Assembly (NCBI GenBank): GCA_035561515.1
Contig: DATMXP010000013.1
Span: 1-64,000 of the forward strand
Reading direction: 5' to 3'
DNA: 64,000 nucleotides
Origin: Terriglobales bacterium
GTDB taxonomy: Bacteria > Acidobacteriota > Terriglobia > Terriglobales > Acidobacteriaceae
The notes beneath the pieces are model-generated. The model saw only the letters and a list, made by a program, of their open reading frames with translations, was not told the DNA's origin and searched no databases. Positions 39,054 through 45,931 of this stretch are shown piece by piece; the first letter of the stretch is position 1; every line of letters starts with the position of its first letter. Made by a program: the position numbers and the translations under genes.

Positions 39054-39509
39054 ATGAAAATCGGCGTGATTTCTGACACTCACGGATTGCTCCGCGATGA
39101 AGCGGTTGAGGCGCTCCGCGGAGCGGATGCGATCCTGCACGCTGGCGACGTGGGTTCGGTGGAAGTGCTGGATGCGCTGAAAAAAATTGCACCGGTGCAT
39201 GCGATCCGCGGGAACGTGGATGTAAAGCCCTGGGCCAAGAAGCTGCCGTTGACCTTGACGGTCGAACTGGGCGGAGTGAAGTTCTTCCTGATTCATAATC
39301 GCGGCGAGTTGAAACGAGTTCCAGAGGGAGCGGGCGCGGTGATATTCGGACATTCGCACAAGCCGCTGATCGAGAGCACCGATGGTGTTATCTACTTCAA
39401 TCCGGGAAGCGCAGGGCCCCGACGATTTCGGCTGCCGATCTGCGTTGGGCGGATGCGGATTGAGGAAGGTCGGCTCATGCCGGAGATCATCATTTTGGAC
39501 GAAAAGTGA
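39054..39509 (+). CDS. YfcE-type metallophosphoesterase
   Basis: A 151-residue calcineurin-like phosphoesterase, single domain. Metal-site motifs in order: MKIGVISDTHG (Asp8, His10), AILHAGDVGS (Asp), VRGN-like AIRGNVD, IFGHSHKP (GHSH) and FNPGSAGPRR. The small size is that of the YfcE/MJ0936 family, which act on phosphodiesters such as bis-pNPP in vitro. Start agrees with the domain. It lies 82 bp upstream of the his leader; whether it feeds transcription into the his operon is not clear. Confidence 0.88.
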   Translation: MKIGVISDTHGLLRDEAVEALRGADAILHAGDVGSVEVLDALKKIAPVHAIRGNVDVKPWAKKLPLTLTVELGGVKFFLIHNRGELKRVPEGAGAVIFGHSHKPLIESTDGVIYFNPGSAGPRRFRLPICVGRMRIEEGRLMPEIIILDEK

Positions 39510-39550: not shown

Positions 39551-39580
39551 TTGACGTGAGAGGGCTTATCACCGTATCCT
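39551..39580 (+). promoter_or_regulatory. Candidate promoter of the his operon
   Basis: TTGACG (39551-39556) and TATCCT (39575-39580) with an 18-base spacer. Predicted start near 39587, so only about five bases before the leader ATG, implying a leaderless or near-leaderless leader peptide. Tentative. Confidence 0.45.
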
Positions 39581-39591
39581 GTGACTTCGAT

Positions 39592-39663
39592 ATGAACTCG
39601 CTGACCCATCGCCATCATCATCATCATCACGTGGCGAACGTGTCGGCGGGGCTCTGCGAATAA
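39592..39663 (+). CDS. hisL: Histidine operon leader peptide
   Basis: A 23-codon ORF, too short for routine gene finding: Met-Asn-Ser-Leu-Thr, then HRHHHHHH (codons 6-13; seven His codons in eight positions: six CAT and one CAC), then VANVSAGLCE and TAA. It lies 79 bp before hisI. Poly-His leaders of this sort are read by a ribosome that stalls when charged tRNA-His is low. No strong ribosome site is visible upstream, consistent with a start close to the 5' end of the mRNA. The peptide itself is probably not functional. Confidence 0.88.
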   Translation: MNSLTHRHHHHHHVANVSAGLCE

Positions 39664-39730
39664 AGTAAGACCAGAGACCAAGGATTTCAGACCCGCTGAC
39701 GCGACAGGCGTTAGCGGGTTTTGTGTTTTC
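39597..39730 (+). promoter_or_regulatory. Histidine operon transcription attenuator
   Basis: Four segments can pair in mutually exclusive ways. Segment 1, CTCGCTGAC (39597-39605, inside the leader before the His codons); segment 2, GTGTCGGCGGG (39640-39650, just after the His codons); segment 3, CCCGCTGACGC (39692-39702); segment 4, GCGTTAGCGGG (39708-39718), followed by TTTTGTGTTTT. 3:4 (12 bp with the flanking A-T, one G·U) is the terminator. 2:3 (11 bp, two G·U) is the antiterminator. 1:2 (9 bp) would protect against antitermination without translation. A ribosome stalled on the His codons frees segment 2; one finishing at TAA masks it. Confidence 0.85.
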
Positions 39731-39741
39731 AGGGGACAACG

Positions 39742-40089
39742 ATGACGGAAATCGATTTCGAAAAGATGGATGGACTGACACCTGCGATTGTGCAGGACAA
39801 GGACACGGGCGAAGTGTTGATGCTCGGGTTCATGAACCGCGAATCGTTCGAGAAGACATTTGCGACCGGTTACGTGACTTTCTACAGCCGTACGCGACAG
39901 AAGCTATGGACCAAGGGAGAAACGAGCGGCAACCGCTTGAAGGTGGTGTCGGCGCAAACGGATTGCGACAACGACACATTGCTGTTCCAGGTGGAAGTGG
40001 AAGGCGATGGGCTGGTGTGCCACGAAGGAACGCGGTCCTGCTTTACGCGCATGGTGCCGATGGTGAGCGCGTCGGAGAAAGTGCAATGA
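39742..40089 (+). CDS. hisI: Phosphoribosyl-AMP cyclohydrolase
   Basis: Third step of histidine synthesis: opens the adenine ring of phosphoribosyl-AMP. 115 residues, HisI domain only, without the HisE pyrophosphohydrolase part. Motifs: [34 protein letters not shown], and the metal-binding DCDNDT together with CHEGTRSCF. The ATG at 39742 follows the attenuator terminator directly and is preceded by GGGGACAAC. Stop overlaps the hisG start (ATGA). hisE is not seen in the window, so it is presumably elsewhere. Confidence 0.94.
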
Positions 40090-40988
40090 CGCCGACGAAA
40101 CCTGTTTCCAACAAGATTCGGCTGGGAGTTCCGAAAGGAAGCCTGCAGGACGCAACGGTGGCGTTATTCAGTCAGGCGGGATGGAAGATATACGTTAGCG
40201 GGCGTTCGTATTTTCCGGCGATTGACGATCCGGAGATCGAGTGCATGCTGATCCGCGCACAGGAGATGGCGCGGTACGTGGAGCAGGGCGTGCTGGACGT
40301 CGGACTGACGGGAATCGATTGGGTCCGCGAGAATGGCCTGGAGGTGGAGGCCATCGCAGACCTGGTGTACGCGAAACAGAGTCGCGGCAAGGTGCGCTGG
40401 GTGCTGGCGGTGCCGGAGGATTCGAGGTTCCAAAAGGCGGAAGACCTGGAAGGTTGCGTGATCGCGACCGAGCTGGTGAACGTGACGAAGCAGTACTTCG
40501 CGAACAAGGGTGTGAATGTTCGTGTCGAGTTCTCGTGGGGTGCGACGGAGGTGAAGCCGCCGGTGCTGGCAGATGCGATCGTCGAGGTGACGGAGACCGG
40601 GTCGTCGCTGAGGGCGAACCGATTGCGAATCATCGATACGGTGATGGAGTCGTACACGCAGGTGATCGCAAACAAGGCGGCGATGCAAAACGAGTGGAAG
40701 AGAGAGAAGATCTCGAACCTGGCGTTGATGTTGACGGGGGCGATCGCGGCGCAGGGTCGCGTGGGATTGATGCTGAACGTCAAGAAAGAAGACCTGGAGC
40801 AGGTGCTGAAGGTGCTGCCGGCATTGAAGCGCCCGACCATCTCGGAACTGGCGGCGAACAACGGCGAGCTGTGGGTGGCCGTCAACACGATCATCGAGGA
40901 GACGACGGCGAGGGACATTATTCCGAAGTTGAAGGCAGCGAAGGCACAGGGCATTGTGGAGTATCCGCTGAACAAGATCGTGGTGTGA
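40086..40988 (+). CDS. hisG: ATP phosphoribosyltransferase, long form
   Basis: First and feedback-controlled step of histidine synthesis: condenses ATP and PRPP. 300 residues with the C-terminal regulatory domain (about 215-300), so it is the long, HisZ-independent type. N-terminal [18 protein letters not shown], then [30 protein letters not shown] and the PRPP loop [12 protein letters not shown]. The start shares ATGA with the hisI stop; longer open frame upstream is an out-of-frame reading of hisI. The next gene begins 1 base after the stop. Confidence 0.94.
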
Positions 40989-40989
40989 G

Positions 40990-42240
40990 ATGGCGATGAA
41001 GATAGTTTCCGGGAAGAAGATCGCAGCAGAGCTGGAGAAGCAGGTGAACCGGCGCATCCTGTTTTCGGCAGAGACGGAGAGGCTGGTCTCGAAAATCGTG
41101 GCAGACGTTCGCAAGAACGGTGAACGGGCGCTGCGGAGATATGCGGAGAAGTTTGACGGCCTTGAGCGGAAGCAGGCGATTGCAGTGTCGCCGGAGGAGA
41201 TGACGTCGGCTTTGGAGTCGGTGACGCCGGAGTTTCGGACTGCACTGGAGAAGGCGGCGAAGAACATCCGGCAGTTTGCGCAGTGGCAGAAGCCGGTGGA
41301 GTTCATGCGGGAAATGCAACCGGGAGTGATGGTGGGACAGGTGGTGCGTCCGCTGGAGTCGGTGGGGTGCTATGTGCCAGGCGGGAGATATCCGCTGCCA
41401 TCAACGCTGCTGATGACGGTGCTTCCGGCGCAGGTGGCGGGGGTAAAGGACATAGCGGTGGCGTCGCCGCGTCCGGCAAAGGAGACGCTTGCGGCAGCGG
41501 CGCTGGTTGGAGTTGAGACGTTCTACCGAATTGGCGGCGCACAGGCGGTGGCAGCACTGGCATATGGGACGGAGTCGGTGAAGTCGGTGAACAAGATTGT
41601 TGGTCCGGGGAACAAGTTTGTGACGACGGCGAAGAAGTTGGTGGCATTCGATTGCGGGATCGATTTTCTGGCGGGGCCGACGGAGGCGCTGGTGGTGAGT
41701 GATGATGGCGATCCGAAGTTCATCGCGGCTGACTTGCTGGCGCAGGCGGAACATGATCCGGATGCGTCGGTTGTGCTGGTGACGACATCGCGAAAGCTGG
41801 CGGAGAGAGTAGGCGCAGAGTTGAAGGCGGGGGCGAAGGATAATCCGGTGGCCAAGGAGTCGCTGAAGAATGCGGTGATGTTTGTGACGGGGTCGCGGGA
41901 GCAGTCGGTGGAGGTAGCGAATGCGATCGCGTCGGAGCACATTACGATTCCGCGAGACTACCTGGGTGAGATTACGTCGGCGGGGTCGATCTTTGTCGGC
42001 GAGTATTCGGCGCAGTCGTTGGGGGACTATGTGTCGGGGCCCAATCACACGCTGCCGACAGGAGGAGTAGCGAGGTTCCGAGGCGGGCTGAGCGTGATGG
42101 ATTTCCTGAAGGTGATTACGGTACAAGAAGTTTCGCGAGAAGGGTTGCGGAGTATCGGGCCAACTGTGGAGAACCTCGCCGAGGCGGAGGGATTGAAGGC
42201 GCACGCGGAGTCAGTGCGAGTGAGGTACGGCAATGCTTGA
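40990..42240 (+). CDS. hisD: Histidinol dehydrogenase
   Basis: Last two steps of histidine synthesis, oxidising histidinol to histidine with two NAD+. 416 residues. Motifs: PLESVGCYVPGGRYPLPST, RIGGAQAVAALAYGTESV, FLAGPTEALVVSD, the zinc and substrate region AQAEHDPDA and SGPNHTLPTGG. ATG at 40990 or 40996 (MKIVSGKK); the first is kept. Its 3' end overlaps hisC by 8 bases, and its coding sequence is typical of the surrounding genes. Confidence 0.95.
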   Translation: MAMKIVSGKKIAAELEKQVNRRILFSAETERLVSKIVADVRKNGERALRRYAEKFDGLERKQAIAVSPEEMTSALESVTPEFRTALEKAAKNIRQFAQWQKPVEFMREMQPGVMVGQVVRPLESVGCYVPGGRYPLPSTLLMTVLPAQVAGVKDIAVASPRPAKETLAAAALVGVETFYRIGGAQAVAALAYGTESVKSVNKIVGPGNKFVTTAKKLVAFDCGIDFLAGPTEALVVSDDGDPKFIAADLLAQAEHDPDASVVLVTTSRKLAERVGAELKAGAKDNPVAKESLKNAVMFVTGSREQSVEVANAIASEHITIPRDYLGEITSAGSIFVGEYSAQSLGDYVSGPNHTLPTGGVARFRGGLSVMDFLKVITVQEVSREGLRSIGPTVENLAEAEGLKAHAESVRVRYGNA

Positions 42241-43309
42241 GGCACGCAAACCGGTGCAGACGATGAAGGCGTATAGGTCGCCTTCGGCGGGACTGACGGG
42301 CCTGAACATGAATATGAACGAAAACACAGCGGGGTGTTCGCCGCGAGTGTTTCGGAAGCTGTCGTCGATGACGGCGCTGGAGGTGTCGAGGTATCCGCAT
42401 CGAGAGCACTGTGAGGCGATAACGGCGCGATTCCTGGGTGTGAGCGCGGATCAGGTGGTGCTCACGAATGGGGTAGATGAAGGAATCCATCTGATTTGCG
42501 AGGCATACCTGCGCGAAGAGGATGAAGCCATCCTGGTGGTGCCGACGTTCGGCATGTACGCGATCTACATCCAGGCGACGGGAGCGAAGATCGTTACCGT
42601 GACGATGCGAGAGAACTTCGAGTTTCCGATCGAGGAGATCATTGCGGCCGTGACGCCGAAGACGCGGATGATCGCGCTGGCGAATCCGAACAATCCAAGT
42701 GGGACGGCGGCAGAGCCGAACGAATTGTTGCGGATTGTGGAGAGTGCGCCAAACGCAGCGGTGCTGATCGACGAGGCATATTTCGAGTTCTACGGACAGA
42801 GTGTGCTGGGCGCACTTCCGAAGTACGACAACCTGTTTGTGGCGCGAACGTTTTCAAAGGCATACGGATTGGCCGGACTACGACTGGGAGTGCTGGTCGG
42901 AAGCAGTAACCAGATGGAGATGGTGCGGAGGGTGAGTTCACCGTACAACGTGAATGCGTCGGCACTGGCTTGCCTACCTGTCGCGCTCTCAGATCAACAG
43001 TATGTGGCGGATTATCTGCGGCAAGTGTTCGATGGACGGCTGAAGTTGCAGGCGTTGTTTGGAGAAATGGGCTTCCAGTATTGGCCGAGTCACGCAAATT
43101 TTGTGCTGGCAAGGATTGGGCCGGAGTACCGGAAGTTCATCGAAGCCATGCAGCATAGAGGAATCCTGGTGAGGGACCGGAATTCCGATCCGGGATGTGA
43201 GGGGTGCGTGCGCATTACGCTGGGGAACTCGGAGCAGAACGAGATGATGTTCAAGGCGGTGAGGGAGTCGGTCGCGGAGATCGGAGCCGGAAGGCAGGTG
43301 GCACGATGA
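42233..43309 (+). CDS. hisC: Histidinol-phosphate aminotransferase
   Basis: PLP-dependent class I/II aminotransferase that converts imidazole-acetol phosphate and glutamate to histidinol phosphate. 358 residues. Motifs: [16 protein letters not shown], the cofactor-binding [23 protein letters not shown] and the Schiff-base Lys in [16 protein letters not shown] (about residue 211), with C-terminal CVRITLGN. Starts inside the hisD end and ends with ATGA into hisB, which fits the continuous operon. Confidence 0.93.
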
Positions 43310-43893
43310 GGAAAGCGAAGATCAAGCGGCATACGAACGAAACGCAGATTGAATTGGCGCTGACTCTGGATGGACGCGGGACGTACAAGGTCTCTACTGG
43401 GATTCGGTTCCTGGATCATATGCTGGAGCTGTTTGCCCGGCACGGTGGATTCGATCTGCAACTGGCTTGTAAGGGCGACCTGGATGTGGATCAGCATCAC
43501 ACGGTTGAGGACGTGGGGATCGCATTGGGTGAGGCATTCGAGAAAGCACTTGGAGATAAGAAGGGAATCAACCGCGCCGGATATTTCCTGATGCCGATGG
43601 ATGAAACGCTGGGGATTGCGGCAGTAGATTTCGGCGGCAGGACTTCGGCGGTGATCGAAACAAAAGTGAAGACCAGGCTCGTCGGGGATCTTCAGTCAGA
43701 GTTGGTGTTCGATTTCTTCGAAGGATTTGCGAGGGGGGCGCGGGCGAATGTGCATTTGAAGACGATGTATGGGCGTTCTAACCATCACAAGATCGAGTCG
43801 TTGTTCAAAGCGTTCGCGCGGGCTTTACGAGTGGCGTGCGCGAAAGACAAGCGGTTGGCGGAAATGCTGCCGAGTACGAAGGGGTTGTTGTGA
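43306..43893 (+). CDS. hisB: Imidazoleglycerol-phosphate dehydratase
   Basis: Dehydrates imidazoleglycerol phosphate to imidazole-acetol phosphate. 195 residues, so monofunctional without the histidinol-phosphatase domain; that phosphatase must be encoded elsewhere. Two symmetrical metal motifs: [17 protein letters not shown] with [16 protein letters not shown], and [21 protein letters not shown] 43306 overlaps the hisC stop; the stop overlaps the hisH GTG start (GTGA). Confidence 0.94.
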
Positions 43894-44486
43894 TCACGCT
43901 GGTGGATTATCGAGCGGGGAACCTGGCATCGGTGCGGAAAGCGTTTGAGCATCTTGGATGCGAGGTGCAGATCACGGAAGATCCGGAGGCAGTGCGCCGG
44001 GCGAAACATCTGGTGGTCCCGGGAGTGGGGCACTTTGCAGCAACGGAGCAGTTGACGCATGCAGGGTTGAGGGATGCGATTAAGGAAGCCATCGGGCAGG
44101 GTGCAAATTTCCTGGGAATCTGCGTGGGCATGCAGTGGATGTTCGAGGGGAGCGCGGAGTCGCCGGAGGTCCGAGGCTTGGGTGTTCTGCGGGGGATGAT
44201 CGAAAAGTTTCCGGCGGGAGCGAAGGTTCCACACGTGGGGTGGAACCAGGTGGAGTGTCGGGGTGAGTCGAGGATTCTGAACGGAGTGGAGTCGCCATCG
44301 TTTGTGTACTACACGCATTCCTACCGTGCGCCGCTGGTGCCGGAAACGGTGGGGGTAAGCGAGTACGGCACGGAGTTCAGCGGAGTAGTTGAGAAGGGAA
44401 ATCTGTTTGGAATCCAATTTCATCCGGAGAAGTCGGGCGCGGCGGGATTGAAGATGCTGGAAAACTTCGCGAGGCTGGCGTGCTGA
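43890..44486 (+). CDS. hisH: Imidazole glycerol phosphate synthase, glutaminase subunit
   Basis: Class I glutamine amidotransferase that supplies ammonia to HisF. 198 residues from a GTG start at 43890 (GTGA with the hisB stop). Catalytic triad: Cys in [11 protein letters not shown], with His and Glu in IQFHPEKS. Also [15 protein letters not shown] at the N-terminus and VPGVGHFAA. The longer in-frame reading upstream overlaps hisB and lacks a ribosome site. Confidence 0.94.
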
Positions 44487-45256
44487 CGAAGCGGATCATC
44501 GCATGTCTCGATTGCCATGCCGGACGCGTGGTGAAGGGTGTGAACTTCGTGAACATCAGGGATGCTGGGGATCCCGCGGAACTGGCGTGCTTGCATTCGG
44601 CGAATGGCGCGGATGAGATCGTGCTGCTCGATATCACCGCTACACACGAAGAGCGCAAGACGCTGGTGGAGACGGTGCGTCGAACGGCACGAGAGTTATT
44701 TGTGCCATTCACGGTGGGAGGCGGAATCAAGTCGCTAGAGGACGCAGGCGAAATCTTTGATGCAGGAGCGGACAAGATCACGATTAATTCGGCGGCGGTG
44801 GCACGTCCGGAGGTAATCACGGACATCGCGAATCGCTTTGGGTCGCAGGCCGTGGTGCTGGCGATCGATGCAAAGAGACTGCCGAGATCATGCGGCAAGC
44901 TAGCGGCGGAGGTTTATGTCTCGGGTGGACGAAAGCAGACTGGTCGCGACGCGATGGCGTGGGCAAAGGAAGCGGAACGGCGCGGAGCGGGCGAGATCAT
45001 GCTGACGTCAATGGATCGTGATGGCACGCGATCAGGTTTCGACCTTGGATTGACCGCAACAATTGCCGGTGCGGTTTCGATTCCGGTGATTGCGTCGGGC
45101 GGTGCAGGGTCAGTGGAGCACTTCGCCGAAGTATTCACGGAAGGAAAGGCAGACGCAGCGCTGGCGGCGTCGATCTTCCATTTCGGAATCGAGTCGATCG
45201 GCGACCTCAAACAAAGATTACAGGCGGCAGGAATTCCGATGCGGTGGCCTATTTAA
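44480..45256 (+). CDS. hisF: Imidazole glycerol phosphate synthase, cyclase subunit
   Basis: A (beta/alpha)8 barrel of 258 residues that makes imidazoleglycerol phosphate and AICAR from PRFAR and HisH-derived ammonia. Starts at GTG 44480 within the hisH end. Catalytic Asp in [18 protein letters not shown] (Asp8-11 region) and in [15 protein letters not shown]. The [22 protein letters not shown] phosphate loop is visible in two parts, [10 protein letters not shown] and AGADKI. The two halves are internally similar. hisA starts right after its TAA. Confidence 0.95.
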
Positions 45257-45931
45257 ATGCTGATTCCTTCGATTGACCTTATGGGCGGCGAGATTGTCCA
45301 ACTGGTGCAGGGCGAGAAGAAGGCCCTGGACTTCGATGATTTCGAGTACTGGATCAAACGGTTTTCGAAATACCCGCTGGTGCAGTTGATCGACTTGGAC
45401 GCGGCTATCGGTACGGGAGACAACCGGCACATGCTGGCACAGTTCATTGAGAGACTACCTTGCCAGGTAGGTGGTGGAATTCGTGACATCGAGAGGGCGC
45501 GCGAGATGGTGGAAATGGGCGCTCGGCGGGTGATTATTGGGTCGGCATTGTTTAGAGATGGTGTAATCCAGAAGGAATTGGCGAGAAGGTTGGCGGATCA
45601 GATTGCCGCGGAGAAGTTGACGTTTGCGGTGGATGCGAAACAGGGGCGAGTGGCCATTCACGGCTGGCGCACACTCACGGAATTCACGGCGGCACAGGCC
45701 ATGCGTGAGCTCAGTGAGTGGTGCGGGGCTTTTCTCTATACACACATCGATACGGAAGGCATGTTGAAGGGATTCCCGACAGAGATAGTTCCTGAGCTGC
45801 AAAAGGCGACCAATCGAAAGCTGATCGTTGCGGGAGGAGTCAGCAGCATGGATGAAGTTGAGCGGTTGGAAGCGATGGATGTGGACGCGATTGTAGGGAT
45901 GGCAATCTATACGGGAAAGATCGAAGCATAA
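45257..45931 (+). CDS. hisA: Phosphoribosylformimino-AICAR ribotide isomerase
   Basis: Opens ProFAR to PRFAR by Amadori rearrangement. 224 residues, about 15-20 shorter than usual HisA, mainly at the C-terminus. Shares the barrel with hisF: IPSIDLMGGEIVQLVQGE with catalytic Asp, QVGGGIRDIERAREM, FAVDAKQGRVAIHGW with the second catalytic Asp, and THIDTEGMLKGFP. Starts at the ATG immediately after the hisF stop, last gene of the operon; a bidirectional terminator follows. Confidence 0.9.
   Translation: MLIPSIDLMGGEIVQLVQGEKKALDFDDFEYWIKRFSKYPLVQLIDLDAAIGTGDNRHMLAQFIERLPCQVGGGIRDIERAREMVEMGARRVIIGSALFRDGVIQKELARRLADQIAAEKLTFAVDAKQGRVAIHGWRTLTEFTAAQAMRELSEWCGAFLYTHIDTEGMLKGFPTEIVPELQKATNRKLIVAGGVSSMDEVERLEAMDVDAIVGMAIYTGKIEA

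Follow-up and report, generated by a model that had tools for sequence, protein, structure and literature searches.

Directly upstream of hisI-G-D-C-B-H-F-A, and on the same strand, the 64,000-nt stretch of Terriglobales DNA analyzed here (the window) carries a short His-rich reading frame followed by competing hairpins. We read this element as a ribosome-mediated (Yanofsky-type) transcription attenuator of the his operon that would sense charged tRNA-His in a leaderless variant, and assign this reading a probability of about 0.9 on the basis of sequence comparisons. A His-rich leader ORF, an intrinsic terminator and a mutually exclusive antiterminator, by which attenuators of this type are recognized, were all found. 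For the window attenuator itself, ribosome stalling, read-through, the start site and the response to histidine are what we infer from these features.

Leader, hairpins and operon in the window

An earlier sequence-only reading of this DNA had noted an ORF of 23 codons in which codons 6 and 8-13 specify His and a TAA stands at 39661, together with segments 1, 2 and 3 and a terminator, and all of these coordinates proved right when rechecked against the window sequence (Table 1). The start codon ATG occupies 39592-39594 and the stop codon TAA 39661-39663; the last His codon lies at 39628-39630 and segment 2 begins 10 nt later. Segments 2 and 3 can form a helix of 11 bp and segments 1 and 2 one of 9 bp, with two G-U pairs in each, and the T-rich tail directly 3' of the terminator hairpin reads TGTGTTTT. 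Between 39400 and 39800, the terminator and promoter of the attenuator are the sole terminator-like site and the sole sigma70-like promoter, compared with 0.2 of each in shuffled sequences. The stretch 39587-39735 folds with a z-score of -3.66 and is more stable than 200 of 200 dinucleotide shuffles; against shuffles, the 2:3 duplex reaches a z-score of -3.35 and 1:2 pairing one of -1.78.

Table 1 Coordinates of the putative his attenuator and of the genes that follow it in the window.
Feature	Position	Strand	Description
Predicted sigma70-type promoter	39551-39580	+	TTGACG 39551-39556, 18-bp spacer, TATCCT 39575-39580
-10-to-ATG gap	39581-39591	+	11 nt; no Shine-Dalgarno motif
Leader peptide ORF (proposed hisL)	39592-39663	+	23 codons, MNSLTHRHHHHHHVANVSAGLCE, seven His codons
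Regulatory His codons	39607-39630	+	codon 6, 39607-39609; codons 8-13, 39613-39630
Segment 1	39597-39605	+	CTCGCTGAC; expected to pair with 39642-39650 of segment 2 if left uncovered by ribosomes (sequence and folds)
Segment 2	39640-39650	+	GTGTCGGCGGG; codes for V-S-A-G; 5' strand of the antiterminator
Segment 3	39692-39702	+	CCCGCTGACGC; common to antiterminator and terminator
Intrinsic terminator (3:4)	39689-39729	+	stem 39689-39702/39708-39721, loop GACAG, T-rich tail to 39729
hisI	39742-40089	+	monofunctional phosphoribosyl-AMP cyclohydrolase, first structural gene; NCBIfam NF000768 above cut-off
hisG-hisD-hisC-hisB-hisH-hisF-hisA	40098-45931	+	remainder of the presumed operon; profile matches

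The gene order hisI-hisG-hisD(-hisC) was kept in all 16 of the 16 loci checked. In the window, the match of hisA falls under the curated cut-off, yet hisA is the best match of that gene. The cluster (39742-45931) is without hisE, and although its hisI is monofunctional, it gives a good score with the bifunctional HisIE model; hisE must be elsewhere. On the same strand and 5' of the attenuator, 39054-39509 resembles by eye a small metallophosphoesterase (GDVGS, GNVD and GHSHKP motifs). Analogous leaders were not found in the bases examined upstream of leuA, ilvB and trpE in the window's genome, where ilvB apparently lies inside a longer cluster.

Another RNA, i.e., a T-box or a known leader family, could in principle be the regulator, with the His run being coincidental. 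T-boxes do regulate his genes in both Firmicutes and Actinobacteria (PMC9413887), but in the window neither T-box nor His_leader (RF00514) gave a match, whether at the gathering score or at E values up to 10, and neither matched any of 15 related loci at the gathering score; the chance of this explanation is vanishingly small. As no Rfam family matched the window at the gathering score, the putative attenuator would work like the enteric his attenuator, yet not be a member of RF00514. Matches of the window to Thr_leader (15 bits) and Trp_leader (13 bits), obtained at relaxed E values, were rejected as sub-threshold chance matches.

Occurrence of the leader across Acidobacteriota

We searched for hisI in 61 relatives, 247 genomes sampled from the phylum and a set of named genomes, and examined the DNA upstream of the 30 loci that the first search gave and of approximately 180 further loci. 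All 30 loci of the first set, which belong to the same family and order, had a His-rich ORF 70-230 bp upstream of hisI. Under a strict definition (at least 4 His in 8 codons, an ORF of 12-45 codons, at most 300 bp from hisI), 129 of the 143 stretches of 300 bp upstream of hisI contained such a leader; the 14 failures consisted of 12 distant hisI genes (L205-L216) and two further loci, L066 and L200. Among Acidobacteriota operons of the hisI-hisG-hisD type, a His-rich ORF lies within 300 bp of hisI in 129 of 131 loci, many of which are related, so that neither the occurrence nor the covariation counts represent independent events. The two remaining loci also have a His-rich ORF by relaxed criteria: in L200 the His cluster is weaker and falls below the threshold, and in L066 the leader stands 688 bp from hisI, displaced by a group II intron (RF02001, 76 bits; QIAN01000162.1, 2039-2205 plus flanks) located between the terminator and hisI.

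The rest of the same loci served as a control and held 5 such ORFs in 923 kb (0.005 per kb), one of them being the displaced L066 leader. Compared with this frequency, the frequency of leaders upstream of hisI rules out chance. By the strict criterion, no His-rich ORF was detected upstream of hisI in Bacteroidota (0/27) or upstream of the more distant type of Acidobacteriota hisI (0/45). Carriers include Terriglobus roseus, Granulicella aggregans, G. rosea, Acidipila rosea, Terracidiphilus gabretensis and Edaphobacter, as well as one Bryobacteraceae MAG and one Vicinamibacteria MAG, and the leader is therefore found in at least two classes. Leaders of relatives contain a median of 7 His. After near-identical genomes had been removed, 120 leaders were retained for later counts. 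Two genomes of the window's family (G004 and G010, both 99% complete) had neither hisI nor a HisG match and are possible histidine auxotrophs in a family whose other members, as a rule, carry the attenuated his operon.

Genomes with the distant type of hisI usually have hisG 4-9 kb upstream of hisI (19 of 23 with both genes on one contig), which indicates a hisG-first arrangement. Among these hisG-first Acidobacteriota, only 2 of 30 hisG upstream regions contained a His-rich ORF. In both cases (L223 and L226, from genomes G205 and G258 of another Acidobacteriota family; MMQLSSLNIHLHHHHHVHHTRVM and MLNLQISRFHAHFHHHALVKGA), the HisG match follows the short ORF at a distance of approximately 300 bp. 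The surroundings of these ORFs are richer in AT and the hairpins differ, and they are possibly a second, separately built his attenuator. In Armatimonadota, the leader was present in 1 of 30 loci, the 29 others being without it. This single locus (L109/L258, G300, in a record titled Armatimonadetes bacterium) is a hisI-hisG-hisD operon with a strong terminator and a His-rich leader that has a GTG start. Its HisI is by far closest to the Acidobacteriota form, pointing either to transfer or to contig contamination or mis-binning, and horizontal transfer of operon and attenuator is probable.

Conservation and covariation of the competing hairpins

A hairpin with a T-run was found 3' of the leader ORF in 108 of 120 loci, and in nearly all loci the hairpin lies 22-50 nt past the leader stop. 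Approximately 12 leaders, mainly from one Granulicella/Edaphobacter-like group, have imperfect hairpins that were missed by the terminator search, and several of the misses could be recognized as imperfect hairpins by eye (e.g., L020, GCCCGCTCAACGCGCATTCCGCGAGCGGGCC). That the hairpins control hisI translation by sequestering its ribosome-binding site, rather than transcription, would have precedent, as translational control is known for some attenuators (PMC9413887), but this is very unlikely here given the T-run behind the 3:4 hairpin in these 108 loci, the usual end of that hairpin 20-70 nt 5' of hisI, and an SD-like motif of its own at 95 of 120 hisI starts.

Transcription attenuation would involve an antiterminator, and pairing of segment 2 with segment 3 in relatives beats dinucleotide shuffles (median z-score -1.84; below -1 in 77 of 98). 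In these relatives, segment 2 starts 10 nt (IQR 8-12) past the final His codon, and its 3' end lies about 9 nt short of the last base of the leader stop codon. Covariation was assessed in 53 distinct sequences whose register was fixed without reference to pairing: segment 3 was anchored by its CCYGC motif and segment 2 by similarity to GTGTCGGCG, which mildly favors conserved segment 2 sequences. In this fixed 2:3 register, 84.4% of cells were paired, compared with 27-50% when the register was slid, and two-sided changes were seen in 6 of 11 pairs and 25 cells, against 5.6 ± 3.0 cells in shuffled alignments (0 of 500 shuffles reached 25). For 3:4, 84.9% of cells were paired and 34 cells were two-sided, against 17.2 ± 3.3 when shuffled, although the first five bases of segment 3 were used to place segment 4 by complementarity, so that those five pairs lean towards pairing. 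As 2:3 and 3:4 both covary, segment 3 is constrained by two partners simultaneously. The leader peptide encoded over segment 2 varies (VSA, MPA, MSA, VLA, VPA) with RNA pairing retained, which argues that the constraint acts on the RNA.

This variation also bears on the peptide. Clusters of His generally bind Zn and Ni, which would suit a His-rich peptide that is itself functional, either metal-binding or trans-acting, with an incidental terminator. A leader peptide acting in trans, peTrpL, is found in S. meliloti (PMC7298713). Nevertheless, we consider such an explanation highly improbable here: across classes, conservation of the peptide is confined to the His cluster, within the family its variation preserves RNA pairing, and the ORF precedes his genes, such ORFs being very rare in the control regions. 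A role of the peptide in addition to attenuation is possible.

The third hairpin is less general, with 1:2 pairing in relatives reaching a median z-score of -0.7 (below -1 in 40 of 98). Of the three mutually exclusive hairpins proposed by the sequence-only reading, 2:3 and 3:4 are thus conserved and covarying, and 1:2, clear in the window, is weakly enriched in relatives and does not appear to be generally conserved. The same reading had named absence of the leader or pairing segments from related genomes as an outcome that would count against it, and had suggested alignment with other Acidobacteriota his operons. Instead of such absence, leader, terminator and antiterminator were conserved, His codons were kept and both competing helices covaried, which strongly supports its proposal that attenuation logic operates in Acidobacteriota.

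Predicted leaderless start of the leader mRNA

The promoter arrangement was overlooked in that first description. Transcription in the window is predicted to start at about 39587-39590, giving a 5' UTR of about 2-5 nt. In relatives, a TTGACA-17/18-TANNNT promoter was found upstream of 119 homologous leaders and scored above the 95th percentile of shuffles in 101 of these 119 loci. The gap between -10 and ATG measures 6-12 nt in 90% of the 119 loci (20% for shuffles) and most often 8-10 nt. An SD-like motif precedes 10 of 120 leaders versus the 95 of 120 hisI starts mentioned above, the hisI test being the more lenient one as any in-frame start near the gene start was allowed. With a promoter so near the ATG and no SD motif, we expect a leaderless mRNA for the leader ORF, and for Acidobacteriota leaders we strongly predict a transcription start 0-5 nt before the leader AUG.

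It is an even call whether the hisI-hisG-hisD operon of Acidobacteriota, in Terriglobia and Vicinamibacteria at least, ancestrally carried a leaderless attenuator that arose independently of proteobacterial hisL and in which ribosome binding at the 5' AUG itself links loading of the ribosome to the initiation of transcription. The sequence-only reading had also suggested a possibly independent evolution. The lack of an Rfam match does not decide between common and separate origin, since short leaders diverge too fast.

Proposed switch and state folds

In the proposed mechanism, polymerase would start a few bases 5' of the leader ATG and the ribosome would bind the 5' AUG directly. When charged tRNA-His is scarce, the ribosome would stall in the His run (codons 8-13) and, assuming the usual ribosome footprint with the last His codon in the A site, leave segment 2 free approximately 10 nt downstream. 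Free segment 2 could then pair with segment 3 as it emerges, the terminator would not form and hisI-A would be transcribed. When histidine is plentiful, a ribosome at the stop codon would, by the same footprint, cover most of segment 2, allowing the 3:4 terminator to form and transcription to end before hisI. If the leader were not translated, 1:2 would form and the terminator as well, a state that is clear in the window and weak in many relatives.

State folds of the window RNA were compared with this scheme. With segment 2 free and polymerase at the end of segment 3, the full 11-bp 2:3 helix formed (-23.6 kcal/mol), with a ribosome placed at the stop codon the terminator formed, and the untranslated RNA folded as 1:2 plus terminator. 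For the complete RNA with a stalled ribosome, the minimum-energy fold at equilibrium still contains the terminator, and the switch would therefore have to be kinetic, as in classical cases.

Comparison with known attenuators

According to PMC2965389, evidence for leader-peptide attenuation had by 2010 come from Proteobacteria and Actinobacteria alone; Firmicutes were added then, and almost none of the attenuators predicted in Acidobacteria had an associated function. Full-text literature searches returned no described leader-peptide attenuator of Acidobacteria, and one may be mentioned in the Lopatovskaya 2010 survey. The mechanism is known; its occurrence across much of Acidobacteriota and the leaderless layout for his appear new. 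A function is given here to one attenuator that recurs through much of an abundant soil phylum, and the family of leaders has the size and the variability that a new Rfam model needs. The leaderless layout also raises the question of how ribosome and polymerase, on whose tight timing the mechanism depends, are timed when translation begins at the 5' end without an SD motif.

In gammaproteobacteria, control of his genes by a leader peptide is a classical mechanism. Its attribution to enteric bacteria in the initial reading was too narrow, as His leader attenuators have also been predicted in several Firmicutes lineages (PMC9413887 and PMC2965389). These include leaders of hisZ/hisS in bacilli (PMC2965389) and of his operons in the B. 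cereus group, Peptostreptococcaceae and Erysipelotrichales (PMC9413887). Like the leaders described here, they are comparative-genomics predictions of a His leader peptide with terminator and antiterminator; they differ in phylum and sequence, contain runs of three to five His and, in the cited parts of these sources, come without mention of a leaderless layout. Leader ORFs at or near the 5' end, or lacking a ribosome-binding site, have parallels in S. meliloti trpL (rnTrpL), whose leader ORF lies at or near the mRNA 5' end (PMC7298713), and in the C. glutamicum ilvBNC leader, which is translated without a ribosome-binding site (Morbach 2000, as cited in PMC10272879). Both concern other amino acids and phyla, and the trpL start has been mapped, whereas the start proposed here is predicted from promoter spacing.

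The window element resembles enteric hisL (RF00514) in several respects: the ORF is short and has seven His codons, an antiterminator hairpin competes with a terminator hairpin, a U-run is present and the element stands upstream of the his operon. Unlike in enteric bacteria, the first gene is hisI rather than hisG, the His run is interrupted by Arg, Gly or Ala in many Acidobacteriota relatives, and the 5' strand of the Acidobacteriota antiterminator lies inside the leader ORF. The distance from -10 to the leader ATG likewise differs, being 11 nt in the window compared with 38 nt in E. coli K-12 hisL, where we read the -10 element as TAGGTT.
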